Positions 1 to 64,000 of a stretch of DNA of 64,000 nucleotides are shown in pieces; positions within the stretch are counted from its first letter, which is position 1; each line of letters begins with the position of its first letter. Source of the DNA: a virus. The translations under genes were made by a program, and so were the position numbers. The notes under the pieces were generated by a model. It made no database searches, was not told the DNA's origin, and saw nothing but the letters and a program-made list of their open reading frames with translations. The stretch spans positions 34,651-98,650 of IMG/VR virus record IMGVR_UViG_3300035113_000077, one strand, 5' to 3'.

Positions 1-706
1 ATGTTGCACTATCTACACTCCACCAAGGAAATTCTAGCATTGAAGAAATATAAGTGAACGCGAACCCATGACAGTTAACTTTGTATTCTTCAGCAATTCT
101 AAATATCTTTTCAAAGAACTTTCTTTTAGGTAGAAATCCACGTCTCTTAGCTGGATAGGCGCCGATGCATATGAGTTTGTATCCTTCGTCGCAGTATCTT
201 TTGAAAAAATCTAAACTCATATCTCCATGATACACAGGTGCTGGTCTAATTCCTTTTTTCTCTAGGTACTTTTGCATATCCCAAATTATATCGCAATCTT
301 TTTTATAATCAAAATTGCAGTAGACATCCCAATGTTTACTATCGCTCTTTACAAAATCTATATACTGCTTTACTGTCTTATTCTTCTGTTCTTCGAATTC
401 TTGTTCTGTCAGAATCTTTTTATTTGCTGATAGTTTACCACCTTGCTTTCTTACAAACTGATAGAATGAGAATGCAGAACTATCCATAAATATTCCAACA
501 TTCTTAGCTATAGCTGCATCATACATTTCTCTTATTTTCTCTTGATAGTAAAATGCACCCGGGCAGACATATGCAAAATTTAAGCAACGATATTTTGTTC
601 CAGACCGTTTTATCCAGTCTAGCTCAAATTCGTAGTTCCGATTTTTATGTTCCTTGAGTACAGCACGAAATCCACTCAAGTACATTCTAGGCAATTTAAT
701 TTTCAT
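1..706 (-). CDS. dpdA: DpdA/TGT-like 7-deazaguanine transglycosylase (partial)
   Basis: The start codon is at 706 and the C-terminus lies beyond the left edge; 235 residues are visible. The protein looks like a member of the tRNA-guanine transglycosylase superfamily, which in phages (DpdA) exchanges guanine in DNA for a 7-deazaguanine. Residues 72-80 (IFMDSSAFS) match the place of the TGT catalytic segment TDSGGFQ, with Asp75 as the conserved acid. A middle segment, PVYHGD followed by LICIGAY, resembles the substrate-loop and barrel strands. The last visible residues, FPWWSVDSA, fit the second catalytic Asp (about 232). The preceding gene ends in an ATGA overlap. QueC, QueD and QueE at the other end of the window make the substrate pathway. 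A tRNA-specific TGT is the alternative; the missing C-terminus would help decide. Confidence 0.7.
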   Translation of the reverse strand, partial: MKIKLPRMYLSGFRAVLKEHKNRNYEFELDWIKRSGTKYRCLNFAYVCPGAFYYQEKIREMYDAAIAKNVGIFMDSSAFSFYQFVRKQGGKLSANKKILTEQEFEEQKNKTVKQYIDFVKSDSKHWDVYCNFDYKKDCDIIWDMQKYLEKKGIRPAPVYHGDMSLDFFKRYCDEGYKLICIGAYPAKRRGFLPKRKFFEKIFRIAEEYKVNCHGFAFTYISSMLEFPWWSVDSAT

Positions 707-30317: not shown

Positions 30318-30326
30318 TCTTTCTCC

Positions 30327-30620: not shown

Positions 30621-30630
30621 GAATCACCTC

Positions 30631-31412: not shown

Positions 31413-32203
31413 TAGACTGCAATTACCTTTTGGTAAGGGGCTAACCATTTCTTCACTGTTGGATCAACAAGATCTGGAGTAAAGGTAACATGAACTTTTC
31501 CAGCATCATAAGTTTGCACTGATGTAATTCCTCCTGCTCTTGCTATAAAGTTCTTAGCTAAAGCAGCACATGCATGCTTAACTCCCTTGGGCATATTCCT
31601 AGGATCATAGCCAGAATTGTAAATGCATAAAACCTCTGTATACGATGCCATCATTTGCCCAGCTGGCACCCATACTTCTCCTACTAGATCATAGTAGTCA
31701 GTCAATGAAACGTCTAAAGCTACAAACTGTGGGGGCCCACCAAAAAATGCCGCGACTTGCAGTATGTTTGCTGCATACTGAGAATCAGGATACACTTGAG
31801 CAGCACTTTTTCTTCCATAGCTATATCTGCCACTTATTCCAACAAATGCAGATAAATTTCCATTCAACTGATTCGTAGTATTCGGTAAAAAGCCAGTATA
31901 AAAATGATTTCCTGAAACTGCATTCAATCCAGATAGAGTTAATTGAGTTGTAGTATCTAATCCAGTTAATGGAGCATATGCTGTTCTAAAGATATTTCTA
32001 GATTCTGAAATTCCAATTCTTTCTGCATAGGTGGAATACACTAAAGAACCACCACCAGTTGCATCCACTCTTCCACATTCACTATCAATCAAAGTGCTTG
32101 CTGCATCAACAATTGTCATTATATTTGGCAATTGCTTGACAGATGGCAGATCAAAAGTTGCAATCTCTGCGTCTAAAAGATATCTGGGTTGAAAATCAAC
32201 CAT
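31412..32203 (-). CDS. putative head-tail adaptor protein
   Basis: A 263-residue protein beside the capsid gene. The first third (LLDAEIATFDLPSVKQLPNIMTIVDAASTLIDSECGR) resembles the helical start of head-completion adaptors that pack under the portal. The middle is Gly/Ser/Tyr-rich beta, and the end has a basic helix and strands (VHVTFTPDLVDP). The assignment rests on position and helix pattern. It shares its first base with the stop of the HNH gene. Confidence 0.55.
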   Translation of the reverse strand: MVDFQPRYLLDAEIATFDLPSVKQLPNIMTIVDAASTLIDSECGRVDATGGGSLVYSTYAERIGISESRNIFRTAYAPLTGLDTTTQLTLSGLNAVSGNHFYTGFLPNTTNQLNGNLSAFVGISGRYSYGRKSAAQVYPDSQYAANILQVAAFFGGPPQFVALDVSLTDYYDLVGEVWVPAGQMMASYTEVLCIYNSGYDPRNMPKGVKHACAALAKNFIARAGGITSVQTYDAGKVHVTFTPDLVDPTVKKWLAPYQKVIAV

Positions 32204-32703
32204 TAAACACCCACTATATAAGTACTATAATTAACAATGTCATGGATTGCGTCTTTACCTACATTAAACATTTTGGTTATCTGTTTTTGAGTGTATTTGC
32301 CAGTAGCATATAACTTTCTAATTTTTCTAACTTGTTTGGGTGATAATATTCTATTACTATAAATTGGAGTTACACTCGCTCCATATTTTACGCCATTCTT
32401 TACTGCATGATCTTTGTTTCCCTTGCTAGTAAGATACTCTAAATTCTTATAATGATTATCATACTTAATTAAATTTTTGTGATTAACTTCTTTTCCTTTA
32501 GGACATTTACCATGAAATACTCGTGCAACTAATCTATGAACTTTAGCCGTTGTATTGCTACCATCTTCTTTTGTTACCATTATATACTTATAGCCATTTT
32601 TATCGTCCCATTGTGTCTTTATCTTGTTTGTTATTGTATCTATAACACAACTACCATCATTTGTAACTTTTAATCCATATCCAGGTACTTTATAAAATCT
32701 CAT
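32203..32703 (-). CDS. HNH homing endonuclease (copy 2 of 3)
   Basis: This 166-residue protein is closely related to the HNH proteins at 2531 and 37573: FYKVPGYGLKVTNDG at the N-terminus, VHRLVARVFHGKCPKGKEVNHKNLIKYDNHYKNLEY in the core, and VRKIRKLYATGKYTQKQITKMFNVGKD as a C-terminal helix-turn-helix. It lies between the capsid terminator and the adaptor gene. AAGGA precedes ATG 32703. As in the other copies, no conserved neighbour gene is interrupted. Confidence 0.88.
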   Translation of the reverse strand: MRFYKVPGYGLKVTNDGSCVIDTITNKIKTQWDDKNGYKYIMVTKEDGSNTTAKVHRLVARVFHGKCPKGKEVNHKNLIKYDNHYKNLEYLTSKGNKDHAVKNGVKYGASVTPIYSNRILSPKQVRKIRKLYATGKYTQKQITKMFNVGKDAIHDIVNYSTYIVGV

Positions 32704-32771: not shown

Positions 32772-33761
32772 TTATCTGGTCGTTTTTATAGCTGCGTGCG
32801 CATAAGACGCACCCTTTGCGACCACTGCTCCGAATTTCAAGATGATAAACTGAGCAGCTAAATTACTAACTAATCCAAGTTGGAACACCCTTGGAATGGG
32901 CGATGTCAACCAGTGGTATTCTACAAACTCTTCCGAGATAATGAATCCTGTATATTGCTTCAATGCACCAGATGGTAACACTGACAATGCAGGATCAGGA
33001 ATTAAAGGTAATAGACCAATCTGAGTAGGAATGGCTTTTACAATAACTCCCGGAATTACTTCCACTTCGTTGTAGTACAATTGAACTGACTTGGCTTCCT
33101 GATCGAACAAATCTCCAAACAACGGGTTCAAATACATTCCCGATGGCTTGACCTCATAATCCGTTCTAGAAGCAATTGTAGCTACTTGAGTTTTTACACC
33201 ATCCACTAATGATCCAGAAGCGGAGATGGTGGCAATATGAGCGATTCCATTTACGTCAGCTGCTGACATGATCTGTCCAGAAACACCAAAGTAATCGTTC
33301 GATGTTTGCAGAACTAGATCAGTATCGGCACCTGTCCACAGGTTCTGATCGTGCAATTTCAACACGGCATCAACTTGATCTGTAAGATCTTTCGCTTCGA
33401 GATATGCGAACTGGCCCTGCTGCTGATTGACTTCCACATCGAAAATGGAGTAGTTAATTCCACTAACGATGGCTTTCAGCATCAAAGGTCTTTCCAAGCG
33501 AATCGGTTGTGATGCTGTAGTTGATAATGCACGAGGATTGGTTGTATTGGCTGAGCCAATTGCCGTCTGTTCGAAATAGCGAGACGGATGGCCAGTGGCT
33601 GGAGTTTGTGAGATGCGTTGTCCGAAAACGAATCTACGGCGAACCAGATCAAAAATTTCAGTCTGATAACGATTAATTTCAATTGCACCAGGCCCAAAGA
33701 AATCAGCGGCAGCGCCGATATCACCGGCGAAATGAGCCTGTACGATAGTTTTACCTGCCAT
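32772..33761 (-). CDS. major capsid protein (HK97 fold)
   Basis: This 329-residue protein follows the protease/scaffold gene and has the features of an HK97-type capsid: an N-terminal arm, an E-loop/spine region (GQRISQTPATGHPSRYFEQTAIG), a P-domain with LEAKDLTDQVDAVLKLHDQNLWTG, and a C-terminal VPxx-type beta stretch (PLIPDPALSVLPSGALKQYTGFIISEEFVEYHW). It is slightly richer in G+C than its neighbours, as highly expressed genes often are. AGAGGA lies nine bases before ATG 33761. A hairpin follows it. Confidence 0.88.
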   Translation of the reverse strand: MAGKTIVQAHFAGDIGAAADFFGPGAIEINRYQTEIFDLVRRRFVFGQRISQTPATGHPSRYFEQTAIGSANTTNPRALSTTASQPIRLERPLMLKAIVSGINYSIFDVEVNQQQGQFAYLEAKDLTDQVDAVLKLHDQNLWTGADTDLVLQTSNDYFGVSGQIMSAADVNGIAHIATISASGSLVDGVKTQVATIASRTDYEVKPSGMYLNPLFGDLFDQEAKSVQLYYNEVEVIPGVIVKAIPTQIGLLPLIPDPALSVLPSGALKQYTGFIISEEFVEYHWLTSPIPRVFQLGLVSNLAAQFIILKFGAVVAKGASYAHAAIKTTR

Positions 33762-33783
33762 TATCTTTTCCTCTTTTCTTCAA

Positions 33784-34758
33784 TTATTGTAACTGCCTGC
33801 GATCCATTTCTCCCTGCTCCATCAAATCTTTCTCCAGCAAATGATTCTTCATAGTCATTCTTTCCATTGGACTTAGTGTTACTTTAGACGATGCAAACAT
33901 CTCATCTACTTCAGCAACAGTTAGTTTACGCCCACTAGCTTGAAGTTCGTTAATATCAAAGCCACCCTTTTGCAGTAGCATCCTAACATCAGCAGGTAAA
34001 GCTTTTGGAGTCATAGTTTCCGTAAAGTTATCGACTTGAGCTTTTACTTCTTCTAATTCTGTTTCTAATTCTTTTTGTTTCTTAATTGATGCATGGAGCT
34101 TCTTGCGAGTTTTCTTTTCGCTAGCTTTTAAGGTATCAATTCGTTTAGTTGCAGATGCAGCAATCGATCGAACAGTCTTAATCACTGCGGCAGCGTTCAC
34201 TGATGTTTTGTGTCCCTTGCTCTTTGCATTTTTGTTTAATTGCCCAAGATCAGGATCAGCAGATTCTTCATCTGGACCTGCTTTAGTTCCCTTTGCCGGA
34301 GCACTAAGTTTAGCCAACTGACTATCAATATCGTCGTCTAAGCTGCTGGAGTCATCATCAGATGAATCATCGTCATCTTTTGCTTTCTTCGCTTTTACTG
34401 TTCCACCTTTTGCTTTTCCAGAAGATGAACTACTGGCACTTCCACTTGCAGCTGCAGCCAGTTCATCCTCTTCATCATTGCCTGAATCAGCACTAGCTCG
34501 AACAGACGATGCAGAGCTTTCAACAGCAGAAGATTCTTCACCAGCATTGATTGTTCCTGCAGCTTGAGACGCAGCCATTTCAGTAATTAGTTCTCCATGT
34601 TCTTTTACTGAAGCAGCAATTGTTTCTAGTTTAGCTCCAAATGGTTTCAGCCCTTCTGCCAAGCCATTTTGAACTGATTTTCCAATTGCAGTAACTAAGT
34701 TGCCCAGCGATCGCGATGAGCCGCTGAGGTTCTTTGATTTCTTTTTCTTGTCGCTCAT
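33784..34758 (-). CDS. nested scaffold protein
   Basis: An in-frame internal ATG at 34758 (Met191, MSDKKKKSK) is preceded by AGGAGG seven bases upstream, an excellent site inside the protease gene. It would make a 324-residue scaffold without the protease, as lambda Nu3 is made from within gene C. The product is low-complexity acidic with an alpha-helical end. Confidence 0.78.
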   Translation of the reverse strand: MSDKKKKSKNLSGSSRSLGNLVTAIGKSVQNGLAEGLKPFGAKLETIAASVKEHGELITEMAASQAAGTINAGEESSAVESSASSVRASADSGNDEEDELAAAASGSASSSSSGKAKGGTVKAKKAKDDDDSSDDDSSSLDDDIDSQLAKLSAPAKGTKAGPDEESADPDLGQLNKNAKSKGHKTSVNAAAVIKTVRSIAASATKRIDTLKASEKKTRKKLHASIKKQKELETELEEVKAQVDNFTETMTPKALPADVRMLLQKGGFDINELQASGRKLTVAEVDEMFASSKVTLSPMERMTMKNHLLEKDLMEQGEMDRRQLQ

Positions 34759-35648: not shown

Positions 35649-37576
35649 TTTCTTAATGCCTTCCTATCTTCAGGATTTAGTGATCTAGGAAATTTTGATG
35701 TTGCTTGATTTACTTTCAAATCATTTGCATTTCTGTATCTAGAGCTGTAGCGCGTGTTAATTGCCTTTTCTTGCCATGTTGGCCTATGTTCAGCTTTCTT
35801 GAATTTCTGTGCTTGATCTTTTTCATCTTGCCTAGAAACTTTAGCTGGCCTAGTATGAGCTTCTCCTTCTTCATCCATTTCATCTGCAACATCGAAGAAC
35901 TGTTTCAATTGCTGAGTTAATGTCTGCAGAATTCCTGGTGATTGCTGCTCCATTTGTTGGCCAAGCTCATCTGTCTCTGGAAGCAAATTGTTTTCTTGCA
36001 GCCACTCAATATCTTCGGGTGACATATCAGCAATATCGTCAGCAGTAAATGCAGAGCCACCAATTCCCATCCCAGTTCCTGTACCTAAGCTTCCACCTCC
36101 ACCACCTCCCGGTATTCCAGTTCCCATTCCTGTTGAACCACCATAGCCTCCACCAGCTGCTGCGCCAGTCGGTGGTTTGGCAGCCATAATCATCATCTGC
36201 ATTTGCCCGAATGATAATTTGCCCCATCCACCAGGCAATGGAGGCCTGCCATCATCTTCTCTTATTTCATCTGGAACTAAAGCATTCATTTGATACTTAC
36301 GTTGCTGAATAGTAGCTTTAGTTAACTGATCTGGGTCTTCGAGGCCGATGAATACAAATTCTAAATCTTCCCATCCCAATCTACGATGCAACACTTCATA
36401 AGTGTAGGCTTCGGATAATCTAATTGCCATTGGCACAACGGCACTTAGAAAATCCTGGTCGGACATGACTTTGCCCACTGCCTTATTTACATCTTGAGTC
36501 ATGTTTAGGGAGATTGGACTAATGTCGAAGGCAGCTCCAATGATTTTAATTTGGAACTCTTGCCAATCTAATAGAAGGTCATCAGGGTTGACAGCTTTGA
36601 TATCGATTACTTCTGGCTTTGGCATATTGGCAATCAAACTAATCTTCGACTGCCCTTCTAATTCGTTTTGAATGTAGCGACGAACAGTTTGCATATTCGC
36701 ATTCTGTTGTGCCGATGTCCACCAAAGCATTGTCTTATGAATCTGATCTGCACCAGCTTTACCGGCTGCATCTTGAGATCCAAGAAAATAATTTATTGTA
36801 TTGAATGCAACTTCCATCTTGCCTAATCCAAATGGAGTTGATGATCTGCTGTTATCTCTGATATAAACTAATTCTTTATCATAGAATGCAATGATTCCAC
36901 GTTCACCCTTTAGCCCAGTCATTTGAGCATAATGTGGTTTGATGTCTGCCATCGACTCAGTCCAATCAGCATAAATTCTAATTGTACTGCCGTCTACTGG
37001 CCACATCATAATTGGTCGTTCATAGCTAGGAGTTATTCTAGGTTCGAAGCATCCATAACCACCCAATAGCAAATCTTCCAAAACTTTCTCAGAGAAAGTT
37101 CTAAAACTATCTTGACGATTTGGTCGCTTAAAACATTTCTTAGCAATACGAATTCTTTTTTCTATTTCTGGAGTCAGCTCAACTTCATCGTCTTCTCTTA
37201 TTTCCCAAGGTAAAGTCATAATGATTGAGTTCTTAATTAAGTTTATGGCTCTACGTGGAATTGGAGTCTCGCTGAAGCGACGGAGGTTGTACGGGGTGTT
37301 CTTTAGGATGGGTTGGTTCAGACGGTGCAAAGATTCCGGAAGATATGGGTACTGCCAACTTCTTCTATCTATTATATCTAGCTTTCCTGCTGTTACAGCA
37401 TTTATTCTTTCTTTATGCTGTTGAATTGTCGATGGCCATAATTCTATAGGAGTACTTTTTAATTCTTGAGCATGAGCTACAGATAAAACTTTAATTACTT
37501 CTTTAATACGCAGTCTTTTTACAATACTGGCTTTTAAATCGTTATGCCAAGCTTTTATGTAATCAGTTATTTTCAT
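35645..37576 (-). CDS. portal protein
   Basis: This 643-residue protein forms the portal ring through which DNA enters the head. Typical portal regions are TPIPRRAINLIKNSIIMTLPW near residue 105, PVDGSTIRIYADW, VYIRDNSRSSTPFGLGKMEVA and KIIGAAFDISPISLNM, plus QDVNKAVGKVMSDQDFL near 370 (stem and wing). The C-terminal 170 residues are Gly/Met-rich (GGGYGGSTGMGTGIPGG) then acidic and basic, and probably disordered. Its start overlaps the end of the HNH gene (ATGA). Confidence 0.9.
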   Translation of the reverse strand: MKITDYIKAWHNDLKASIVKRLRIKEVIKVLSVAHAQELKSTPIELWPSTIQQHKERINAVTAGKLDIIDRRSWQYPYLPESLHRLNQPILKNTPYNLRRFSETPIPRRAINLIKNSIIMTLPWEIREDDEVELTPEIEKRIRIAKKCFKRPNRQDSFRTFSEKVLEDLLLGGYGCFEPRITPSYERPIMMWPVDGSTIRIYADWTESMADIKPHYAQMTGLKGERGIIAFYDKELVYIRDNSRSSTPFGLGKMEVAFNTINYFLGSQDAAGKAGADQIHKTMLWWTSAQQNANMQTVRRYIQNELEGQSKISLIANMPKPEVIDIKAVNPDDLLLDWQEFQIKIIGAAFDISPISLNMTQDVNKAVGKVMSDQDFLSAVVPMAIRLSEAYTYEVLHRRLGWEDLEFVFIGLEDPDQLTKATIQQRKYQMNALVPDEIREDDGRPPLPGGWGKLSFGQMQMMIMAAKPPTGAAAGGGYGGSTGMGTGIPGGGGGGSLGTGTGMGIGGSAFTADDIADMSPEDIEWLQENNLLPETDELGQQMEQQSPGILQTLTQQLKQFFDVADEMDEEGEAHTRPAKVSRQDEKDQAQKFKKAEHRPTWQEKAINTRYSSRYRNANDLKVNQATSKFPRSLNPEDRKALRK

Positions 37577-38100
37577 GCTATTAAAGATTTATCTTTCCAA
37601 GTCTCATAATTTACAATTAAATTTATTGTCCTTTGGCACACTTTAAACATCTTAGATAATTGTACTTGAGTACATTTTCCAGTTGCATATAGCTTTCTTA
37701 TTAACTTAACTTTCTTCCAATCCAATTTAGATATTCCATGATTTTCTCCTGATACATCACCTAAATTTTTTCCCGGAGAATAACCATTTCTAACTGCGTG
37801 GTGCATATTTTCACTACGAGTAATCCATTCTAAATTCTTATAATAATTATTCTGTCTATTACAGTCAATATGATTTACTTCTAATCCTTTCTTATAACCT
37901 TTACAAAATACTAGAGCAACTAATCTATGAACTCCTACTATAGTACTTTTTCCATTATCTTTTCTAACACCTAAAAACTTATAACCTCGTTGTAAATAAA
38001 GTGTTCTTAAATTCTTTGTTATATTATCTCTTACATCACCATATTTTGTAACTTCAACTTGGTAACCTGGAACTTTATACCATTTAATTCCAATAGACAT
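37573..38100 (-). CDS. HNH homing endonuclease (copy 3 of 3)
   Basis: This 175-residue protein is the third paralogue: WYKVPGYQVEVTKYGDVRDN at the N-terminus, VHRLVALVFCKGYKKGLEVNHIDCNRQNNYYKNLEW in the core, and VKLIRKLYATGKCTQVQLSKMFKV at the C-terminus. It is the first coding sequence after a terminator and long spacer, immediately before the portal, and may ride on the structural promoter. AAAGGA lies eight bases before ATG 38100. Confidence 0.88.
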   Translation of the reverse strand: MSIGIKWYKVPGYQVEVTKYGDVRDNITKNLRTLYLQRGYKFLGVRKDNGKSTIVGVHRLVALVFCKGYKKGLEVNHIDCNRQNNYYKNLEWITRSENMHHAVRNGYSPGKNLGDVSGENHGISKLDWKKVKLIRKLYATGKCTQVQLSKMFKVCQRTINLIVNYETWKDKSLIA

Positions 38101-42990: not shown

Positions 42991-43248
42991 TTAGTTTATG
43001 TTGTTATCGTTAAATAAAGACTTAATTGCCATAACTATTTCTTTGACTCTTTCAGGTGGCCCACTTGTAAACAATTCAAAGTTAACAACTTTCTCTTTTC
43101 CTTCTTCCAAAGTAGTTATGCAAATAAGTCTCCCTCTAAGTTCCTTCGAAGCTTTCATCATAGATCGTGTTGAGTCATGATCTAAATGCTTAGCACCAAC
43201 ATCTTCCAGATTATAGCTAACTTCCTGCACTTCCAAGTTTGGTCTCAT
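42991..43248 (-). CDS. hypothetical protein
   Basis: An 85-residue alpha/beta protein (VQEVSYNLEDVGAKHL, LRGRLICITTLEEGKEKVVNFELF). No family recognised. ATG 43248 overlaps the stop of the glycosyltransferase gene (ATGA). Confidence 0.7.
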   Translation of the reverse strand: MRPNLEVQEVSYNLEDVGAKHLDHDSTRSMMKASKELRGRLICITTLEEGKEKVVNFELFTSGPPERVKEIVMAIKSLFNDNNIN

Positions 43249-44180
43249 TCGATTACTCCTAAGAATCTAGATGCACGTCGGACACTTGCCATCAGTTGAG
43301 ATGCATATATTTGCGATGGCTCAATCTGAATTGGAACTGTATTGTTTGCTCCCCAAGGGAATATAAAATGCCATCCAAGACATTGGGGATAAAATAAAAT
43401 ATGCTTTGCATCTTGGCTTGCCGCAAGATGGCCCATTCCATTATCAACTGTAATAACTAATTTGGAATTTTTCATTAGAACAGCCAAGTAGTCTAATCTA
43501 ACTCCTGTCATTACTTCTTCTTCGCTTAGCTGCCAACTTTCATCTGGTTTATCATCTGGAGCACCAAGCATTCTTACTAGACCTAGCGTTCGCATAAATT
43601 GAATCAATGGAATCCAATGGCCAGGTTGAAGCATTTTGTTTGGAACGTCACCTTTTCTGCTTGCGCAGCTTGCAGAGAATGGGCTAAATAAAACAAAACG
43701 TTCATCCACTTCAACATCATCTTTCAAGTGAGCTAATGTCACCCAAGGGTCATAATAAGGCTTCCATGCTTTGAATGTTCCAATTGAGTTCGTCAGTGTT
43801 CCAACTTTTGGTGACTCAATTCCAAGTTGATCGCAGAAGCCTTCTATGATATGGCACTGATGGTCGTCAGCATACTTGCCAGCGTCACCTGCGCCAAGAA
43901 CAAATATTTTATCATAAAAAGAATCTACTAAATCAATATACCGATGATCTTTTGGTAAACTCTCTTTTGTAAATATTTGTCTATCATTATCCATACTATA
44001 AAAAATGTTTGTCCACTCAACACCTATTCCTTTATAGAGTCTTGTCACATGATCTTGCTGAGTTAGCAAATCAACTTCATCATATTCTGATCGATGAAGT
44101 CTAAACCATTCACGAATGGCAACACCAGCACATAAAGCATCTCCAATCAAATTATGAGAAATTATAAATACTCTTTTCAT
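43245..44180 (-). CDS. GT9-family (heptosyltransferase-like) glycosyltransferase
   Basis: This 311-residue protein fits glycosyltransferase family 9 (GT-B fold, ADP-heptose:LPS heptosyltransferases): IISHNLIGDALCAGVAIREW at the N-terminus, VLLTQQ-type strand, and in the C-terminal half KNSKLVITVDNGMGHLAASQDAKHILFYP, the typical donor-binding 'D-G-HLA' segment. It might add sugar to a phage component or host LPS. It overlaps the genes on both sides by four bases. A second GT9-like gene is at 57926. Confidence 0.8.
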   Translation of the reverse strand: MKRVFIISHNLIGDALCAGVAIREWFRLHRSEYDEVDLLTQQDHVTRLYKGIGVEWTNIFYSMDNDRQIFTKESLPKDHRYIDLVDSFYDKIFVLGAGDAGKYADDHQCHIIEGFCDQLGIESPKVGTLTNSIGTFKAWKPYYDPWVTLAHLKDDVEVDERFVLFSPFSASCASRKGDVPNKMLQPGHWIPLIQFMRTLGLVRMLGAPDDKPDESWQLSEEEVMTGVRLDYLAVLMKNSKLVITVDNGMGHLAASQDAKHILFYPQCLGWHFIFPWGANNTVPIQIEPSQIYASQLMASVRRASRFLGVIE

Positions 44181-51098: not shown

Positions 51099-51680
51099 TT
51101 ACTTTACTTTAGACTTCGTCTTAACTGATCTTCCTTCAACTTTGGCTGCCAACTTTTTAAGTCGACGAAGTTCGTAGCGTGTACATTTTTTATTGTTGTC
51201 TGCAATATGAAGAAATTTCATTTCAGAAGCAGTAAACGTTTCGTCTAACTTTTCTATATCAACTGAAAGTATTTTCTTCAATATTGTTTTTGCTCTTTGA
51301 TGTAAGGGCTTTACTGTTTTCAATCCTTTCTTTTTGTGGCTCAACGTCATTTCATGTTTGCCATGGCAAGGGCGATGCACTAAAGATTTATTTCCACAAA
51401 TAGCAAAAATCAAATCTGGAGTAAATCGTTCTTTTAACACTTTGTGAGCTGTTAAATTATTCATCAAATACTTTCCAGAATTGTCACGATGCTTGCCATT
51501 GCGGTGGTGCGTAGTCAATTTCAGATTCTTCAATGGTGAATGAGTTTTGTTGCCAAATACTTTGTCTGCAAGCTTTGGATCGAGCAAAGGCAATCCACAA
51601 AACTCACAACACACAAGAGGTAGCAGAAAGTGAGCTACCTCTCGCAATGCACGAATTTCAGTTTTTGTGCTATTTCTCAT
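51099..51680 (-). CDS. HNH-type endonuclease
   Basis: This 193-residue protein has a Cys-pair start (VCCEFCGLPLL), then KLTTHHRNGKHRDNSGKYL and LVHRPCHGKHEM, an HNH core with the zinc-supporting cysteines. It is unrelated to the other three HNH copies. A KLAA site (LKKLAAKVEG) lies near the C-terminus. It might be a nicking or homing endonuclease. Confidence 0.75.
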   Translation of the reverse strand: MRNSTKTEIRALREVAHFLLPLVCCEFCGLPLLDPKLADKVFGNKTHSPLKNLKLTTHHRNGKHRDNSGKYLMNNLTAHKVLKERFTPDLIFAICGNKSLVHRPCHGKHEMTLSHKKKGLKTVKPLHQRAKTILKKILSVDIEKLDETFTASEMKFLHIADNNKKCTRYELRRLKKLAAKVEGRSVKTKSKVK

Positions 51681-52224
51681 ATGGGTACACTAAGTACTTT
51701 TTAATTATCTGAAGTATTTCTTTGTTTACATCAGCAGCAGCATCAGCAGCAGCACGAGCAGCAGCATAAGCAGCATAAGCAGCAGCATCAGCAGCAGCAC
51801 GAGCATCAGCAGCAGCACGAGCAGCAGCATAAGCAGCAGCATCAGCAGCATCAGCAGCAGCACGAGCAGCAGCATCAGCAGCAGCACGAGCAGCAGCATC
51901 AGCAGCATAAGCAGCAGCATCAGCAGCATAAGCAGCATCGTTAGTCGGATTTTCTATCCAAAATTCCGCTGCTTCAATTGCTTTAAGTGGCCTCAGTTCA
52001 TTTTCAGGAACAAACTTCAGAACCAATCGAGCAATTTGGCAAGCAACAATAACAAATTGCTTTTTGTCGTTCTTGTTTGTTCTACCAGCCCACCAAAAGA
52101 TCCAATCAATTCTTTCACATTCATTCCAACATTGTTGAGGAGTCTTATCAGATGCCCAAATTCTAGCACCTTCACAAGCACCCAAAGTCTTAAGATGAGT
52201 TTGTAGTTCTGTTAACTTTTTCAT
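51670..52224 (-). CDS. protein with DWLLW-type head and alanine-repeat tail
   Basis: A 184-residue protein. The N-terminal 90 residues match a family common in phages and bacteria, with ACEGARIWASDK, CWNECERIDWIFWWAG and CQIARLVLKFVPENE. A long alanine-rich repeat of DAAAYAADAAARAAADAA type (residues 95-163) follows, then a helical end. Function unknown; the family is sometimes annotated as immunity-like. The repeat tract is encoded by GCAGCA-type DNA and likely varies in length. Confidence 0.75.
   Translation of the reverse strand: MKKLTELQTHLKTLGACEGARIWASDKTPQQCWNECERIDWIFWWAGRTNKNDKKQFVIVACQIARLVLKFVPENELRPLKAIEAAEFWIENPTNDAAYAADAAAYAADAAARAAADAAARAAADAADAAAYAAARAAADARAAADAAAYAAYAAARAAADAAADVNKEILQIIKKYLVYPYEK
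51735..51945 (-). repeat. alanine-coding GCAGCA tract
   Basis: About 210 bases of imperfect repeats of GCTGCTGCTTATGCTGCT/GATGCTGCTGCT type on the minus strand, encoding the Ala-rich tail. Replication slippage could change its length. Confidence 0.9.
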
Positions 52225-56463: not shown

Positions 56464-56766
56464 TCAAATAATAAGTTTTTTATTCGGTAAAAGCAATCCT
56501 GACCCTTGTTCTTGTGTCTTCATAGAGAAGATGCCGAAGCTCTTAACAACTACTTCCTTCATAACGAATTGATGTGGAGTTCCACATCCAGTACAACACT
56601 GAGGATTTTCGTGAATGAATATTGCCATTGAATAAGTTGCTTGATTATTTATTTCCATTCTTGGCATTATAAATGCATTCTTTGTCCCACACTTTTTGCA
56701 TTCAAAGTCAATTGAATTTCCAGTTTCACCAACATCAATAAAATTCTGTTCACCATTTCCACTCAT
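56464..56766 (-). CDS. zinc-ribbon protein
   Basis: A 100-residue protein with CKKCGTKNAF near residue 24 and QCCTGCGTPHQF near 57, a split zinc ribbon. ATG 56766 overlaps the stop of queE (ATGA), with GGGGTG seven bases upstream. Unrecognised; it is in the 7-deazaguanine region. Confidence 0.72.
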   Translation of the reverse strand: MSGNGEQNFIDVGETGNSIDFECKKCGTKNAFIMPRMEINNQATYSMAIFIHENPQCCTGCGTPHQFVMKEVVVKSFGIFSMKTQEQGSGLLLPNKKLII

Positions 56767-57491
56767 CGCACACCCCAAATTTTCTGTGATTGTTGAGTAA
56801 TTCTCCAAGTTGGATGTCTCTCAGCTATTTCTTTGCATTTATCCATATTTGATTTATCTAAAAAATCAATTCCATTGATTGAAGATAGCCAAATGATACA
56901 ATCATCTTTTGCAAAACTAACTAGTGCTTCTGCTTTTTGTTCATCAAATTTATCATCAACTAGAAGTTTTATTTCATTTGCTAGCATAGCCATTTTCATT
57001 TTACAGTTAAATTTTGGGCTAACTGTAAACCAAAGATTATAATGACCATGAGTGAATCTAGGAATTTTTGTTCCACTAGTTTCAATATGTATCTTTGCTA
57101 TGATTTTACTTTTATATAATAAATCAAAAAATTCTTCTAAATCATGAATTAAAGGTTCTCCACCAGTTATACAAATATGTTCTACACCTACTGGGATTCT
57201 TTTTATAATTTCTTCTGCTGTTAATCTTTCTTTAACTCTAAAATCAGTATCACATAAAAACTTACGACCATCCCATGATGTGCACTCTTCTTGCCAGATA
57301 GGGATGTTTCCATATTCTTCAGTATCTTTACCAGTACTTTCAGATATAAAAGAATCTTTTACTTTATCAATTGGTTTACCAACATTACATCCAGCAAATC
57401 TAACGAAACACATTCTGACGCCAGAAAATAATCCTTCGCCTTGCCAACTAGTAAATATTTCACTTATTGGATATTTCTTTTCTTCACTCAT
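56763..57491 (-). CDS. queE: QueE 7-carboxy-7-deazaguanine synthase (radical SAM)
   Basis: This 242-residue protein fits QueE, which converts 6-carboxytetrahydropterin to 7-carboxy-7-deazaguanine. It has EIFTSWQGEGLFSGVRMCFVRFAGCN (residues 11-36), a stretch ending CTSWDGRKFLCDTDF, and ICITGGEPLIHDLEEF with the radical-SAM GGEP. Cys35, Cys70 and Cys80 are the likely iron-sulphur ligands but their spacing is unusual. The C-terminus (TVSPKFNC... NEIKLLVDD) fits QueE. ATG 57491 follows GGAAGGA by eight bases. It overlaps the zinc-ribbon gene by four. Confidence 0.88.
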   Translation of the reverse strand: MSEEKKYPISEIFTSWQGEGLFSGVRMCFVRFAGCNVGKPIDKVKDSFISESTGKDTEEYGNIPIWQEECTSWDGRKFLCDTDFRVKERLTAEEIIKRIPVGVEHICITGGEPLIHDLEEFFDLLYKSKIIAKIHIETSGTKIPRFTHGHYNLWFTVSPKFNCKMKMAMLANEIKLLVDDKFDEQKAEALVSFAKDDCIIWLSSINGIDFLDKSNMDKCKEIAERHPTWRITQQSQKIWGVR

Positions 57492-57492
57492 C

Positions 57493-57936
57493 TTATTTAT
57501 CCTTCCTCTTTTGAAATATTGGTTCCCTAAGTTTTCGTCTAGCAACTTTCTTTGATGACTCATTGTCAGCCGTCGGATAGACAACTTTTTCTTGATCTAT
57601 TTCTTCTACTCTATTCTTTCCAAAGCCCAAAGCAGTAACGGTATTGACTATCATATCTAATAGATTGAATTTCTTCTTTGGCTTAGCCATTTGCTCAATA
57701 GTCATATTCGCATCTGGCGATCCAAATATCTCTCTAAGTAATTCTTCCTGTGGATTAAGTACTTCCGGTCTAGGTAATCCTTGTTCGCACCAGTAACATA
57801 TTGCCGATGAATATCCATTATAAGAAGTCTTACAAATGAAGTATCCACATCTCCGGCAGTGTATATTGACGGATCCATCTAGATTTCTTATTCTAATTCT
57901 TGATGGATCAGTTTCTGGCGAATCCCTAAAGGGCAC
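57493..57936 (-). CDS. zinc-site protein
   Basis: A 147-residue protein with CRRCGYFICKTSYNG and ICYWCEQGL (zinc knuckle pairs), then an Asp/Glu/Lys-rich C-terminus. Unrecognised. Its start overlaps the GT9-like gene by 11 bases, and its stop lies just before queE. Confidence 0.7.
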   Translation of the reverse strand: MPFRDSPETDPSRIRIRNLDGSVNIHCRRCGYFICKTSYNGYSSAICYWCEQGLPRPEVLNPQEELLREIFGSPDANMTIEQMAKPKKKFNLLDMIVNTVTALGFGKNRVEEIDQEKVVYPTADNESSKKVARRKLREPIFQKRKDK

Positions 57937-58600
57937 TTAGCATCCTCTCCAGTACTCGATATACAATGTGTAAATTACTATCAAATGATTCTATACCTTC
58001 ACCACAAAGCATACTATATCTAAGGTTTGAATGCTTCGATAAAAATTCTTTTGGGTATTCATTTAAATTATACAGTTCTAATACAGCTTTATTTTCACAA
58101 GCAGCTAAATACGTTGCTACTGATCTAGTGCCACAAAGAATTTTAGCAGAATCAAAAGTTGATGTAGTAACATTTACTTTAGTCTTAATACTATCAATAA
58201 ATTCAAATGCTTTACTGCTCCAAGGAATTATGCACAGATCATATTTTATTTCTTTACTAGGAATTGCAACTAATTCATTTACTTGTTCTAATCCGATCAT
58301 GGCCCCAAAGCAATTAGCAGCATGTCTATGATTGCTTCTCCCCATGTCAATTGCACTTTCATCATCTAAATCCATTACTAAATCAAATTTCACTTCAGCA
58401 AAATCTTCAAGCTTATTTGATATAAATACCATTGAAGGAATAATTAAGTTCGTTAGCCAGTTCTCTTCCATCAACATGAACGTTTGAAATGGCAATTTCA
58501 TTCTACGAAGCTTATTTTCGTAAGTAGAAACTGCTGCCCACGCTGCTACTAGAAGTTCTTCACCTTTAGGCATCTTGAATAATATGTTATATGTTCTCAT
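57926..58600 (-). CDS. GT9-like glycosyltransferase-related protein
   Basis: A 224-residue protein whose N-terminal part resembles GT9 enzymes (RTYNILFKMPKGEELLVAAW; KFDLVMDLDDESAIDMGRSN with a HAANCFGAMIGLE stretch). The C-terminus (AKILCGTRSVATYLAACENKAV) is like the donor-site region. It is shorter than the full GT-B fold of 300 residues or more. It shares its first bases with the next gene (ATGA/TGA overlap). The donor and acceptor are unknown. Confidence 0.6.
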   Translation of the reverse strand: MRTYNILFKMPKGEELLVAAWAAVSTYENKLRRMKLPFQTFMLMEENWLTNLIIPSMVFISNKLEDFAEVKFDLVMDLDDESAIDMGRSNHRHAANCFGAMIGLEQVNELVAIPSKEIKYDLCIIPWSSKAFEFIDSIKTKVNVTTSTFDSAKILCGTRSVATYLAACENKAVLELYNLNEYPKEFLSKHSNLRYSMLCGEGIESFDSNLHIVYRVLERMLSAL

Positions 58601-58860
58601 CAGCTTATCACTGTTGAATCAAGAGGAACTTTAATTTTTTCATTGATACACATCGGACACCACTTATGAGGTTCGCCGGTTTCTTCATTTTTCATAAATT
58701 CTATTAAATGCTTAGCTCTAAACAACCCATGCTTAGGGCACTCGTACATCGGTTCTCTTGGACTAGACTTTACTTCTAACTTTGATTCTATAATCAAAAA
58801 CAACAAATATAGTAGCGCCGATCCAATAAAGCATAAAACAATTATCAATTCAATATGCAT
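58600..58860 (-). CDS. membrane-anchored zinc-site protein
   Basis: An 86-residue protein with an N-terminal membrane helix (MHIELIIVLCFIGSALLYLL) and a cytoplasmic-type zinc site (ECPKHGLFRAKHL ... WCPMCINEK). Unrecognised. It lies between the two glycosyltransferase genes. Confidence 0.7.
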   Translation of the reverse strand: MHIELIIVLCFIGSALLYLLFLIIESKLEVKSSPREPMYECPKHGLFRAKHLIEFMKNEETGEPHKWCPMCINEKIKVPLDSTVIS

Positions 58861-58864
58861 ATCG

Positions 58865-59884
58865 TTACCCTAAAGCAGTTTTGAAAGCTTCATGCCACGC
58901 AACAATTCTTTTCTTCATATTGTAGTTTTCCATTACTACATTGTACATTTTATTTCCATAGTATAGTCTTTGGTCTTCATTTGTACTCAATTCAAACAAC
59001 TTAGTTTTCCAATCTTTCTCTGTTTCACAGAGCAACCACTTTAAATCATTATCTAATGAAGTAAATTCCAAATATGGTTGCACAGGTGAAGCTAAACATG
59101 GAGTTCTTATGGCACCCATTTCAACCATTTTTAATGCTGACTTACTTCTATTGAATCTATTATTCTCTAAGGGTGCAACTCCGATGTCCCAGTTCCATGT
59201 GGATAGTCTAGCAAAATACTCTTTCACTGGAACCCACGAATGTACTAGTACTCGATTATGATGTAATAAACTTTCACCCGGTGGAACCATTCCAATCCAG
59301 TGCAAGTGAACTTTAGGAACATTTTGTACTACATTAGCAAGCGTATTATGACCCATCTGTTCTAAATCTTTTAAGTGAGTATCTGACCCTGCCCATCCAA
59401 TAACAACTCTATCTTTATTCTTTGGTAGAATTGACTGTTTCAATAATGCAGGATCAATAGCATTAGGAATTGCAACAATTGGAATTCTAGTTCCTATCTT
59501 TTGTTCAACAACTGATTTCAATCTAGTAGTAGAACAAGTAATTATATCACATGTAGAAGCACACGTCATAAATCCACGTTCAAAGTCTTTTATTACTTTA
59601 AGATGATTTTTAGCTGGATTCGAAGCTTGTACACTCCACATGTCGTCGTCCAAATCAAAGCAAATTTTTATTCCAATCTGTTTCATTGCCATTAACGTTT
59701 CATAGTTTTTATCTGATGCTAATCTTTGAACTACTCCTAGTTCACAATCAGAAAAACTCTTATATGAAACTAGTCCCTTTTCATCTGGCATTATATACTT
59801 AGAATTTGGAGTTCGCAAATAAGGTAGCCACATTCTAAAGAATGCGCATCCATCTTCACTAGCTGGAAGAAATGCGACTCTCAT
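58865..59884 (-). CDS. GT4-type glycosyltransferase
   Basis: A 339-residue GT-B enzyme. The C-terminal half shows DRVVIGWAGSDTHLKDL near residue 160, then VHLHWIGMVPPG, LSTWNWDIGVAPLENNRFNRSKSALKMVEMGA (donor-site E) and the helical tail typical of GT4. The N-terminal half has FLPASEDGCAFFRMWLP and CFDLDDDMW. It may modify DNA bases, virion or host glycan; neighbours are QueD and QueE. It overlaps queD by four bases (ATGA). Confidence 0.78.
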   Translation of the reverse strand: MRVAFLPASEDGCAFFRMWLPYLRTPNSKYIMPDEKGLVSYKSFSDCELGVVQRLASDKNYETLMAMKQIGIKICFDLDDDMWSVQASNPAKNHLKVIKDFERGFMTCASTCDIITCSTTRLKSVVEQKIGTRIPIVAIPNAIDPALLKQSILPKNKDRVVIGWAGSDTHLKDLEQMGHNTLANVVQNVPKVHLHWIGMVPPGESLLHHNRVLVHSWVPVKEYFARLSTWNWDIGVAPLENNRFNRSKSALKMVEMGAIRTPCLASPVQPYLEFTSLDNDLKWLLCETEKDWKTKLFELSTNEDQRLYYGNKMYNVVMENYNMKKRIVAWHEAFKTALG

Positions 59885-60384
59885 TTTAGTTTCCTATTAT
59901 AATCAGCCCAACAGTTTGGGGTTTCATATACTCGTACATTTGTTAACTCTAAACCTTTTTCTTTAATTGAAGAACTAAGTAGTGCAAAAAAGTACCTAGC
60001 TAAATTTTCAGCTGTAGGGATAAAATTCATAATAATTAACTTGCCCATTAAATCATCGTGCATAACAAAGCTATTTAGTGTTTTATCAGATGTGTTACTA
60101 AGTACTATACCACTAGTTGTTAATTTTCTTGGTAAAGCAATATCTTTTACCCATAACATCATTCCATGATCATGAATACCATGAATGTCGTGCATCATTA
60201 ATTCTTTTAAAAATCCAAAGTCTACAACCATACCTTCTTCAGAACTTCCTTCTTCAACACATATTTCTCCACTAACTGTAGCTTGTATTTTGTAGCGATG
60301 CCCGTGAAAACTACGACAAGCACTTTTATGATTTGGGATTCTATGACCTGCATCAATTTCAATTTCTCTAGTTATTTCTTGCAT
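59881..60384 (-). CDS. queD: QueD 6-carboxy-5,6,7,8-tetrahydropterin synthase
   Basis: A 167-residue protein with the QueD/PTPS zinc-site and catalytic motif: IDAGHRIPN (His14), SACRSFHGHRY (Cys23, His27, His29), then GMVVDFGFLKELM, DHGMMLW, PTAENLARYFFALL and VYETPNCWADY with the Glu. It makes the pterin intermediate of preQ0 from dihydroneopterin triphosphate. Start ATG 60384 follows GGAG by five bases; a longer upstream frame lies in ruvC. Its GTP cyclohydrolase partner (FolE) is not in this window. Confidence 0.92.
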   Translation of the reverse strand: MQEITREIEIDAGHRIPNHKSACRSFHGHRYKIQATVSGEICVEEGSSEEGMVVDFGFLKELMMHDIHGIHDHGMMLWVKDIALPRKLTTSGIVLSNTSDKTLNSFVMHDDLMGKLIIMNFIPTAENLARYFFALLSSSIKEKGLELTNVRVYETPNCWADYNRKLK

Positions 60385-60871
60385 TTTGTCTCCGTCCGTA
60401 TTCAGCAATAAGAAGTGCATCGGCCCGACCATCATGTTTCTTTAATCTAAAGTACTTCTTTGATCTAGGAAATAATTTCTTAGCTCTTTTTATATTTGAT
60501 GCTTTCTTATTTTCTCTTTTCTTTTTGCCAAAATAAAATCTGGTCCAAGAGATCATTGGTACTAGTTCATATTCTAATCCTAACCCTACAAGGATTCCTT
60601 CCCACAATCCTTTACTTCTTCCAAGTAAGAAGTTAGATACTTTACTTCCTAGAAAAGGATGAACACCTTCAATGAATATTTTTGTTTTCCTCTTTGTTAA
60701 TTGCTTCAATAGCTTTCTACATTTTCTTAAGTCATAATCTTTTGTTTGCTTCTTTTTTCTTGAATATGTTTTTCTAATCTTTGTAGGAGTATCATATATG
60801 TGTGCTCTACCTTTTGAATCTATTAGAGCTACAGCTCCAGATATGCCGGGATCTATACCGATTGATCTCAT
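60368..60871 (-). CDS. RuvC-like Holliday junction resolvase
   Basis: A 167-residue protein with the RNase-H-fold acidic residues of RuvC: SIGIDPGISGAVAL (Asp7), IFIEGVHPF (Glu68), and HDGRADALLIAEYG (Asp147 and Asp151) near the C-terminus. The Arg/Lys-rich middle fits DNA binding. Such enzymes cut branched DNA before packaging. It overlaps the downstream queD gene by 17 bases and the upstream gene by four. Confidence 0.88.
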   Translation of the reverse strand: MRSIGIDPGISGAVALIDSKGRAHIYDTPTKIRKTYSRKKKQTKDYDLRKCRKLLKQLTKRKTKIFIEGVHPFLGSKVSNFLLGRSKGLWEGILVGLGLEYELVPMISWTRFYFGKKKRENKKASNIKRAKKLFPRSKKYFRLKKHDGRADALLIAEYGRRQNARNN

Positions 60872-61104
60872 TTTGTTTTATCTTTAATCATTTGATATAT
60901 CCTAGGGCTAACCATAAATGAGTTATCGGCTAATTTATAAATTTCATCTTCACAACTAATATGTGTAAAATTCTTCCGTTGTTTCGACCATTTCTTTCTA
61001 ATTCTTTTCTTTTTTGATTTAGGAAATTTAACTTGAACAAGTTTCATTGTAGGTAAATATGGGCTAACATAAACTTTACTTACAGCACTAATTAGTGTTT
61101 CCAT
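60868..61104 (-). CDS. small basic protein, leaderless candidate
   Basis: A 78-residue, Lys-rich protein (KLVQVKFPKSKKKRIRKKWS). Unrecognised. ATG 61104 has no ribosome-binding site, but TCTGTATAAT ends five bases before it, so its mRNA may be leaderless. It overlaps ruvC by four bases. Confidence 0.62.
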   Translation of the reverse strand: METLISAVSKVYVSPYLPTMKLVQVKFPKSKKKRIRKKWSKQRKNFTHISCEDEIYKLADNSFMVSPRIYQMIKDKTK

Positions 61105-61109
61105 ACTTA

Positions 61110-61119
61110 ATTATACAGA
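61110..61119 (-). promoter_or_regulatory. TCTGTATAAT motif, leaderless position
   Basis: Located five bases before ATG 61104, the same distance as at the SF2 helicase start. The upstream gene stops two bases before it. Confidence 0.55.
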
Positions 61120-61121
61120 TT

Positions 61122-61328
61122 CTAGTTTTGTACTTCTTTCACATATTTGTCATAGATTTTTTCAAAAGTAACTTGTTGGTTGCCAAAGAATTTAAACTTA
61201 TCTTCATATCTTTCTAGATTAGTTCTAATACTATCTAGAAATTTCGTTTCGAAGTCATTAAATTCAGTTTCAAAATCATCTAGATCATTAAGCATTTCAG
61301 CAACACGAACTGACTCAAGCTTTGCCAT
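61122..61328 (-). CDS. small acidic helical protein
   Basis: A 68-residue protein, Asp/Glu/Phe-rich with a repeated DDFETEFNDFETKF, probably a coiled coil. Stop codon is TAG. Unrecognised. It overlaps the upstream gene by 14 bases. Confidence 0.68.
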   Translation of the reverse strand: MAKLESVRVAEMLNDLDDFETEFNDFETKFLDSIRTNLERYEDKFKFFGNQQVTFEKIYDKYVKEVQN

Positions 61329-61743
61329 TGCTTATCACCTTTAAGTTCTTTTCTGGAACTTTAAATTTCTTTGTTGTTCCTACAATACAAACTTCATGCC
61401 TAATATGGCCTCTATTATTTGTATCTACATCAGTAGCCATAATAGTTACTTTTTCACCAGTAGGAATGTGTTGCATTATCATTCCACGTTTTATTTTACT
61501 GCTTAGCTTTTCTTTTTGTTTTCCCTTAGCTCTAATAATTGATTCCACTCGATCTGCTGGAATAGCTTTTTCAAGTATTTCTTTATCTCTATCTGATACT
61601 TGAGCATCACTGTAACTAGTTTGTGGATGACCTAATTGCTTTCCTTTGCTTTCAGCAATTTGAAATAGAGTTAAATTGCCGGAGCTAAAATTACGCCCCG
61701 GCAACTGTTTTTCTACAATTGTAACTTTTTCTTCTTTAGCCAT
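61315..61743 (-). CDS. hypothetical protein
   Basis: A 142-residue protein with a disordered start and a C-terminal beta-rich part (KRGMIMQHIPTGEKVTIMATDVD; HEVCIVGTTKKFKVPEKNL), perhaps an SH3-like barrel. Unrecognised. Confidence 0.7.
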   Translation of the reverse strand: MAKEEKVTIVEKQLPGRNFSSGNLTLFQIAESKGKQLGHPQTSYSDAQVSDRDKEILEKAIPADRVESIIRAKGKQKEKLSSKIKRGMIMQHIPTGEKVTIMATDVDTNNRGHIRHEVCIVGTTKKFKVPEKNLKVISNGKA

Positions 61744-61758
61744 TGTACATTACTTCCT

Positions 61759-61953
61759 TCAGAATGTTTTTGACAAACGCATTCCTTCAACTTGTCCAAG
61801 CGTAACTGGTGATCCTGTAACTTTCTGATATGCAGCAATAGCTGCTTCTACATCCTGAATTAGTTCTAGTGGAATGTCTGTTCCAAGTTTTAATTGAGAT
61901 AACAATGCTTCTAAACCAGCTAAGCCTAACTTAAGAGCTTCAATAATATCCAT
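61759..61953 (-). CDS. small helical protein beside lipoprotein
   Basis: A 64-residue Leu/Ala-rich protein (IEALKLGLAGLEALLSQLKL), amphipathic rather than a clear membrane helix. It begins directly after the lipoprotein stop. It may act with it. Unrecognised. Confidence 0.7.
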   Translation of the reverse strand: MDIIEALKLGLAGLEALLSQLKLGTDIPLELIQDVEAAIAAYQKVTGSPVTLGQVEGMRLSKTF

Positions 61954-62343
61954 TTATTTCACCAGTCCTTTCACATCATTAATTAATTGATTCAAATTTG
62001 CAAGAGCAGAATTAAGAGCATCAGCTTTAGAAGCAACAGGGGCACAAACAGTTTCTATTGGATCAGTAGGTTTAAATCCACAATATGTCTTAAGAGCTGT
62101 AATTGTTAAATTCTGAGCATCGACACTTTTATTTATTGTTACACAAGTTGTCTTTGATGGAGTAGCAGAGCACTCAGTTTGATATTGACTTTGTGCTTTA
62201 GAAATAAATCCAGTTGCTCCAGCAATTCCATCACGAGCACGTTGCTCGAGAGTTGTTGGTGTTCCCGTAGGAGTAGGGCCAGTTGATTTCTTACATCCAA
62301 ATAACCCAAGTACCATTAAACATACTACAATAGTTCTTTTCAT
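61954..62343 (-). CDS. lipoprotein
   Basis: A 129-residue predicted lipoprotein: signal MKRTIVVCLMVLGLFGC with Cys17 in the lipobox, then a Thr/Pro-rich linker and a helical domain with two disulphide-type Cys pairs. AAGGAG lies seven bases before ATG 62343. With the adjacent small protein it recalls an accessory envelope or lysis-linked pair, but no spanin motif is seen. Confidence 0.78.
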   Translation of the reverse strand: MKRTIVVCLMVLGLFGCKKSTGPTPTGTPTTLEQRARDGIAGATGFISKAQSQYQTECSATPSKTTCVTINKSVDAQNLTITALKTYCGFKPTDPIETVCAPVASKADALNSALANLNQLINDVKGLVK

Positions 62344-62354
62344 TATTTCTCCTT

Positions 62355-63077
62355 TTAATCATTTACTTCTTCAAGTCTTAGACTCATTACTTTACCCAAA
62401 TCATGCCCCCACGTTGCGCCGCCACGATGGCCCACCAAGGCTTTAAAACTACGAATTGTCAACCATCCCAAACTTTGTAACTTATATGAAATTTCATTAT
62501 CACTAAAAATATGAATGTTTCTTTGATTAGTTTCATCCAAATAAATCCCAGGCATTCCTCTTGATGCAGAAGCTTCATATAGAGCTTGCATATTCAAAAG
62601 CCAACAGTGTCCAGTACAGTACCCGGGGTTACCCGGGACACTAGGAGAAGTAATGTTTTGCCAGCGTCTAGGTTCTTCCATAGACATCTCTGAACCAACT
62701 AATCCAACATGAACTCCTAATTGAGCTTCAGCTTCATCTTTAACAGCAAATAATTCTTCTAACCATCCTTCTCCTAATTCTAAATCTACATTTAATGTTA
62801 CCACCCAAGAACTTCTAGCTAGTCTTAAGCCAAGATTATAGGCCCGGGTGAACCACCTCTGTTTCTGTGTTCTAATCAAATGTGAAGACTTGCTGAAAGC
62901 TGGATGATTGTCTACCATGTTTGAAATATGATTTCTACCTACTTCATCACTATTATCATCCACTGCAATAATTCTATAGTCTTTAGTATGCTGATGTAAA
63001 GTATCTAAGCATTTAGATAAACAGTCCTCTGCTGGATATTGTCTAGTTGATCTAATTGATAAAATAATATCTATCAC
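62355..63077 (-). CDS. GT2-family glycosyltransferase
   Basis: A 240-residue GT-A enzyme: VDIILSIRSTRQ-type start, YRIIAVDDNSDEVG near residue 35, RAYNLGLRLARSSWVVTLNVDLELGEGWLEELF (the DxD-type NVDLE), and GMPGIYLDETNQRNIHIFSDNEISYKLQSLGW near the end. The fold is a typical GT2 single domain. It overlaps queC by four bases (ATGA). The acceptor is unknown. Confidence 0.8.
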   Translation of the reverse strand: MIDIILSIRSTRQYPAEDCLSKCLDTLHQHTKDYRIIAVDDNSDEVGRNHISNMVDNHPAFSKSSHLIRTQKQRWFTRAYNLGLRLARSSWVVTLNVDLELGEGWLEELFAVKDEAEAQLGVHVGLVGSEMSMEEPRRWQNITSPSVPGNPGYCTGHCWLLNMQALYEASASRGMPGIYLDETNQRNIHIFSDNEISYKLQSLGWLTIRSFKALVGHRGGATWGHDLGKVMSLRLEEVND

Positions 63078-64000
63078 TTAATCATCCTCAATGCTTCTAA
63101 GTCTTCGATGCAACGTTTTTCGGAATAATGACTAAAATCTTTCTCATTCAAAGCTTTATTCAAATTGATATTGTACTTATCAATATATTCTTTGCACCCT
63201 ATCTTTGGGTGAATAGCATAGTCTTCAGATGTGTTCATTCCAAATGCTGAAATAAATGATAGATACTTGCGCAAACATGCTTGACACTTTCCACATTGAC
63301 TATGTTCTTTTGAAAAACAAGTTACTGTACTATATCTAATAATGTTTATATCATTTGTTTTAGCAAATTCTTTTAACCAACCGGCTTTAGTATGAGTAGA
63401 CAATGTATCTACATAAACTTCTTTCCCAGTTACTGCTTCATACCAATCTTGCCACTGCCCAATAAATTTCTTTGATTTATCCCCTTTATCTGATTCAAGT
63501 CCTTCACCATCTACTACTGAAAATATAACTACTCCATTGTCTTTAACACATTCAGCAGCAATAGTTAGAAACAAAAAGTTTCTACCTGGAATAATGTGTT
63601 TCCAGTTCTTATAAAGAGGAGTTTCAGAGTCTAAATTACCCAAATCTATATACCTATACTTTAATCCACAGGGTCTTAATTTATTTAAAGCCTCAATTTC
63701 TTTACTAGCATAATCTTGATTAATATCAATATATAGCCCTCTAGGTTTATCAGCTAAAAACCACGCTATCGTACTATCAGCCCCTCCAGATGTAAGACAT
63801 ATTTCATCTAACAATTGTTGACTATTCCAAGGTTTAACTTTTATATCAAAGCCTTCTGGTTTCTCTGGACAATCAATTGATGTTGATAGAACACTTTGCA
63901 ATAACTCTGGTTGTAACTGAGTATGAAAGTTAGTTCCACGTTTTAATGCTGCTATCACTTCAATTGCTGTCTGTACTACTACTGAATCTTTAATATCCAT
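63074..64000 (-). CDS. queC: QueC 7-cyano-7-deazaguanine synthase
   Basis: A 308-residue protein that would make preQ0 from 7-carboxy-7-deazaguanine and ammonia. It has the PP-loop CLTSGGADSTIAWFL (residues 68-82), later IPGRNFLFLTIAAEC, and the C-terminal zinc site TCFSKEHSQCGKCQACLRK (about 229-243). A 60-residue N-terminal region before the PP-loop is longer than in bacterial QueC. The ATG is the last codon of the window, so an upstream extension cannot be excluded. It pairs with QueD and QueE. Confidence 0.88.
   Translation of the reverse strand: MDIKDSVVVQTAIEVIAALKRGTNFHTQLQPELLQSVLSTSIDCPEKPEGFDIKVKPWNSQQLLDEICLTSGGADSTIAWFLADKPRGLYIDINQDYASKEIEALNKLRPCGLKYRYIDLGNLDSETPLYKNWKHIIPGRNFLFLTIAAECVKDNGVVIFSVVDGEGLESDKGDKSKKFIGQWQDWYEAVTGKEVYVDTLSTHTKAGWLKEFAKTNDINIIRYSTVTCFSKEHSQCGKCQACLRKYLSFISAFGMNTSEDYAIHPKIGCKEYIDKYNINLNKALNEKDFSHYSEKRCIEDLEALRMIK

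Follow-up and report, generated by a model that had tools for sequence, protein, structure and literature searches.

The closest described systems are those of the Escherichia phage CAjan and the Mycobacterium phage Rosebush, in which FolE, QueD, QueE, QueC and DpdA form the minimal set leading to dPreQ0 and no amidotransferase or QueF has been found (PMC6884629, second group). In Enterobacteria phage 9g (Queuovirinae), QueC is a Gat-QueC and the modified base is dG+, with dpdA lying beside folE and followed by genes for a clamp and a polymerase. The uncultured bacterial virus analysed here has all five enzymes of the minimal set in one 98.65-kb record, each matching its family, and it very probably encodes its own complete pathway for dPreQ0 modification of DNA. 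It thus resembles CAjan and Rosebush in its gene content but differs from them in that the genes are split over two distant modules and in that the cluster loop of its QueE is atypical. With 9g it shares the PHROG family of DpdA, an equivalent of His196 and the order of dpdA, folE, clamp and polymerase, whereas its QueC is devoid of a Gat domain. The new element is the QueE variant, which belongs to a virus-only group; the dPreQ0 pathway itself is already known.

The case is built on the five genes, their family assignments, their catalytic residues and their co-conservation in two separate modules of distant relatives. According to the enzyme activities that we infer from characterised phages, FolE would convert GTP to dihydroneopterin triphosphate, from which QueD would make carboxytetrahydropterin, QueE 7-carboxy-7-deazaguanine and QueC preQ0. 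DpdA would then exchange guanines in the replicated phage DNA for preQ0, with dPreQ0 as the presumed end product, and its role would be anti-restriction, the preQ0 in phage DNA blocking host restriction enzymes.

The window, that is the whole 64,000-nucleotide stretch under analysis, corresponds to positions 34651-98650 of the 98,650-base record. Its GC content is 36% and almost every gene is on the minus strand. Both record ends fall on gene ends: a minus-strand gene has its stop codon in the first three bases (L002 1-3), and the last three (window 63998-64000) are the ATG of queC. Since these ends coincide with predicted gene boundaries, trimming is suggested, and the virus may be larger, with further enzymes encoded outside the record. 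Elsewhere in the window, a 2179-residue tail-like protein (14955-21494) has a Hint-like stretch at its C-terminal end (KCIPVDEILHTSEGEI ... LTHNGVLPKQ), an ORF at 51670-52224 contains a long low-complexity AAADAAAYAADAAAR repeat, and a ThyX-like protein (960-1853) scores below the Pfam and NCBIfam cut-offs. The record also has four scattered genes for related HNH endonucleases (phrog_59 and others), at window 2531-3079, 32203-32703 and 37573-38100 and at L003 5050-5577.

The gene for the DpdA-like DNA guanine transglycosylase starts at window position 706 on the minus strand and runs off the left edge (window 1..706, continuing to record position 34361), so that the window holds the first 235 of its 331 codons; it had been overlooked in the preliminary description. 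The protein matches phrog_887 ('queuine tRNA-ribosyltransferase'; 1.4e-28 over its full length, 8e-14 over the portion inside the window) and, in tblastn, DpdA of 9g (2e-14) and of many other phages, and it is about 25% identical to characterised relatives. All 39 viral sequences compared keep D75, H213 and D232. D75 and D232 fall on the DSGAF and VDSSSW motifs in the alignment and, by comparison with TGT enzymes, are presumably the catalytic aspartate pair, while H213 aligns with His196 of 9g. Both aspartates and the His196 equivalent are present, as in 9g-type DpdA1, the lack of that histidine being the mark of DpdA2 (PMC6884629). The partial protein is modelled as a confident TIM barrel. 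In a PDB fold search with this model, TGT ranked eleventh and was not separated from other TIM barrels; its matches among viral structures include several annotated queuine tRNA-ribosyltransferases. The Pfam TGT profile (PF01702) does not match the protein, and no tRNA-type TGT was found in the 98.65-kb record.

The folE gene overlaps dpdA at record 33735-34379, some 270 bases beyond the window edge (NF006825 6e-57, over the cut-off; PF01227 5e-55), within a replication module and beside the clamp and PolA genes. The preliminary description had seen no FolE, QueF or amidotransferase. This holds between 56763 and 64000, and the search of the rest of the genome for folE that it recommended did locate the gene. 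With DpdA at the window edge and FolE just beyond it, the full minimal set FolE-QueD-QueE-QueC-DpdA is contained in one record, and for this reason the earlier interpretation of the que genes, as a set supplying preQ0 for the modification of DNA, is now even better founded and is the best reading. As regards other viruses, DpdA-like genes can be paired, either adjacent or two per record (L027 9935-11940, L018 9010-10939, L093 9842-11781 and G008), which suggests paralogues with different targets. One further DpdA frame (G018:C1:9247-10029) crosses a TAA, where recoding, error or decay is possible.

QueE, QueD and QueC were indeed found where the preliminary description had placed them, with the motifs it had quoted, and profile matches well above chance level identify all three as preQ0 enzymes. 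The 6-carboxytetrahydropterin synthase QueD is encoded at 59881..60384 on the minus strand, with an alternative upstream start at 60435. It matches PF01242 (3.4e-31) and, under the cut-off, TIGR03367 (9e-23), and it retains the CxxxHGH and DH motifs, including SACRSFHGHRY. The gene adjoins that of a RuvC-like resolvase (60368..60871, minus strand; phrog_1770 1.6e-26), which is outside the pathway. The QueC-like 7-cyano-7-deazaguanine synthase (308 residues; 63074..64000, minus strand) carries the motifs SGGADS and CGKCQAC and matches PF06508 over the cut-off (3e-13). QueC, QueD and QueE all score under the NCBIfam equivalog cut-offs and are therefore divergent members of their families, and their functions were checked via residues, fold and neighbours.

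The QueC of the window forms a clade with those of L004 and L095, both of which lie in clusters with queE, queD, folE and dpdA. Identities are 32-40% inside this clade and 27-28% to other phage QueC, and in a profile-profile comparison the clade joins the other viral QueC at a probability of 99.5%. Because the initiating methionine coincides with the end of the record, a Gat-QueC truncated there was considered and ruled out: the L004 homologue (37-40% identical) begins at the same methionine, the record contains no GAT domain, and the long N-terminal region of the 9g Gat-QueC has no counterpart in the alignment. The class II glutamine amidotransferase domain that precedes QueC in a Gat-QueC is accordingly missing from the window protein. 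In another record (G006:C1:70059-70793), the QueC frame crosses two TGA codons, with recoding, error or decay as possible causes.

These features also bear on the end product. Profile searches of the 98.65-kb record found neither QueF nor a GATase_6 domain; the sole QueF candidate was a weak cross-hit to FolE, another T-fold protein (E 0.015), and was rejected. Since QueF, GATase_6 and a tRNA-type TGT are lacking from the record and QueC is without a Gat domain, dPreQ0 is the best prediction, rather than dG+ or dPreQ1. There is a small but real chance that the product of this pathway is a different 7-deazaguanine, namely dADG, dG+, dPreQ1 or some derivative beyond these, either made by an enzyme that is divergent or went unseen or arising because QueC halts at the amide. 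The divergence of the QueC clade would fit such an outcome, as would the possible cut in the record, from which an amidotransferase could have been lost, and a methyltransferase gene lies between queC and dpdA in L004, which shares this QueC. Moreover, the modifications vary widely among phages (PMC6884629). Against it stands the lack of QueF, GATase_6 and Gat-QueC across 98.65 kb, and dPreQ0 remains the preferred product.

For phages that carry preQ0 genes without DpdA, a role in tRNA modification has been proposed (PMC6884629). The genes would then raise host tRNA queuosine, or serve metabolism in general, and the DNA would be unmodified. For this virus we regard such a role as very improbable, since a DpdA paralogue with its catalytic residues overlaps folE in a replication module that is conserved in distant relatives, and the record has no tRNA-type TGT. 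The folE-dpdA pair and the que genes form separate modules, queE, queD and queC being located about 57-64 kb away, near the terminase. The viral contigs L014, L015 and L027 share the replication module (helicase, primase, exonuclease, dpdA, folE, clamp, PolA and SSB) at 24-47% identity, and in L014 and L015 it additionally includes RecA, the clamp loader and SbcCD. The records from which L014 and L027 derive (G001 and G004, respectively) encode QueD and QueE away from dpdA, and G004 also QueC. Phage 9g and Stenotrophomonas phage Bhz54 likewise have folE, dpdA, clamp and polymerase in this order. More generally, of 80 viral loci located through their DpdA, 67 encode FolE within about 10 kb, 62 QueE, 56 QueD and 41 QueC. 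The full dPreQ0 pathway thus appears to have been kept in a deeply diverged lineage of uncultured phages, split between a replication module and a late-gene region, which suggests that replacement of DNA guanine is long-held there. The family A DNA polymerase of the virus (L003 11838-14708; record 28838-31708) bears an N-terminal domain of the uracil-DNA-glycosylase superfamily (PF03167 8e-14).

The three glycosyltransferase genes reported among the que genes are reduced to two: one between queD and queE (58865..59884, minus strand; phrog_7162 1.5e-38) and a GT2-family member adjoining queC (62355..63077, minus strand; PF00535 4.5e-15). The third candidate (57926-58600) has no match in Pfam or PHROGs and is unrelated to the GT9 of the phage. 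The further sugar modification that had been raised in this connection did not find support: no positive evidence was found for the 58865-59884 enzyme acting on DNA, and this gene is present in two of ten related records tested (G005 and G007), both of them the closest in the structural module. Chemically, a nitrile is not known to act as a glycosyl acceptor. That these glycosyltransferases further glycosylate the 7-deazaguanine is hardly credible, for although L107 and L109 also have a counterpart of the 58865-59884 gene between queD and queE and the record contains a dTDP-sugar 4,6-dehydratase-like gene, the glycosyltransferase is absent from the dpdA-bearing G001, G002, G004, G006 and G008, phage glycosyltransferases commonly serve other uses, and we know of no glycosylated 7-deazaguanine in DNA. 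Genes for a dTDP-glucose 4,6-dehydratase-like protein (L002 13851-14918), an FkbM methyltransferase (L003 471-1202) and the GT9 (window 43245-44180) hint that this virus also makes glycans.

The 7-carboxy-7-deazaguanine synthase QueE (242 residues) is encoded at 56763..57491 on the minus strand, its likely start being the ATG at 57491, with a longer TTG start at 57584 possible. It matches phrog_2076 (4.7e-25), contains the CDTDF and GGEP motifs, and the best five PDB matches of its model are all QueE (E. coli, B. multivorans and B. subtilis). It has the fold of the E. coli and B. multivorans enzymes and equivalents of Q13, E15, R27, the three cysteines, T40, G94 and S136, the substrate, SAM and Mg residues being kept as Q17, E19, R31, T82, G111 and S158 (residue roles from PMC11142719). 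The spacing of the cysteines is different. Verified QueE bind the [4Fe-4S] cluster via CX3CX2C, as in E. coli, or CX14CX2C, as in B. multivorans (PMC4389238, PMC11142719). In the window QueE, the corresponding loop (57252..57389, minus strand) reads C35-x34-C70-x9-C80-DTDF, that is CX34CX9C, and matches neither published spacing. An alignment of 34 sequences places C35, C70 and C80 with the three canonical cluster cysteines. Since both published spacings come from verified QueE, spacing is a variable feature of the family rather than a defining one.

The CX9C spacing is common to 18 viral records, namely 17 sequences that span the loop and the partial record L148, which form one clade and keep the other active-site residues. 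Within the 17, the first cysteine interval ranges from 12 to 53 and the second is always 9. The clade is supported at 99/98 with all columns and at 97/90 once those of the loop are excluded, and trees of both kinds do not favour independent origins of CX9C. An assembly error or an intein was ruled out as the source of the loop, as 17 further viral records have CX9C; the stretch in between is short, and its sequence varies. Most QueE of this clade adjoin queD or folE. Of the 18 records, 8 yielded a DpdA; the rest are fragments of 6-77 kb or cases in which the profile missed DpdA. In a motif scan of viral contigs for the CX9C spacing, 15 of 19 matching contigs had QueE. A scan of bacterial genomes with the QueE trio returned only canonical CX3CX2C QueE. 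Single-sequence scans of viral contigs with DpdA alone or QueE alone gave no matches; the viral relatives of both were found with alignments as queries.

In the QueE model (pLDDT 88), C70 and C80 lie in the strands of a beta-hairpin that is modelled with confidence, and residues 44-65 are disordered. Alignment, tree and model together suggest that this enzyme would bind its cluster via the unusually spaced cysteine trio. Extending this to the viral clade, we think it likely that its members hold the radical-SAM [4Fe-4S] cluster by CX(12-53)CX9C, with the last two ligands on a beta-hairpin and the first set apart by a disordered loop of variable length. Such an architecture would be new among radical SAM enzymes and might be an adaptation to a specific electron donor of the infected cell. 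A limited literature search found no published description of the CX9C spacing of QueE, which is a weak sign of novelty. The clade would widen the range of known radical-SAM cluster motifs. Because it is missed by searches for CX3CX2C and by Pfam Radical_SAM at its cut-off, QueE of this kind are probably under-annotated. In four other viral QueE frames (L092, L081, L078 and L021), a long intein-like insert (CFGVMPG..., Hint-like) is found at the radical-SAM CxxC.
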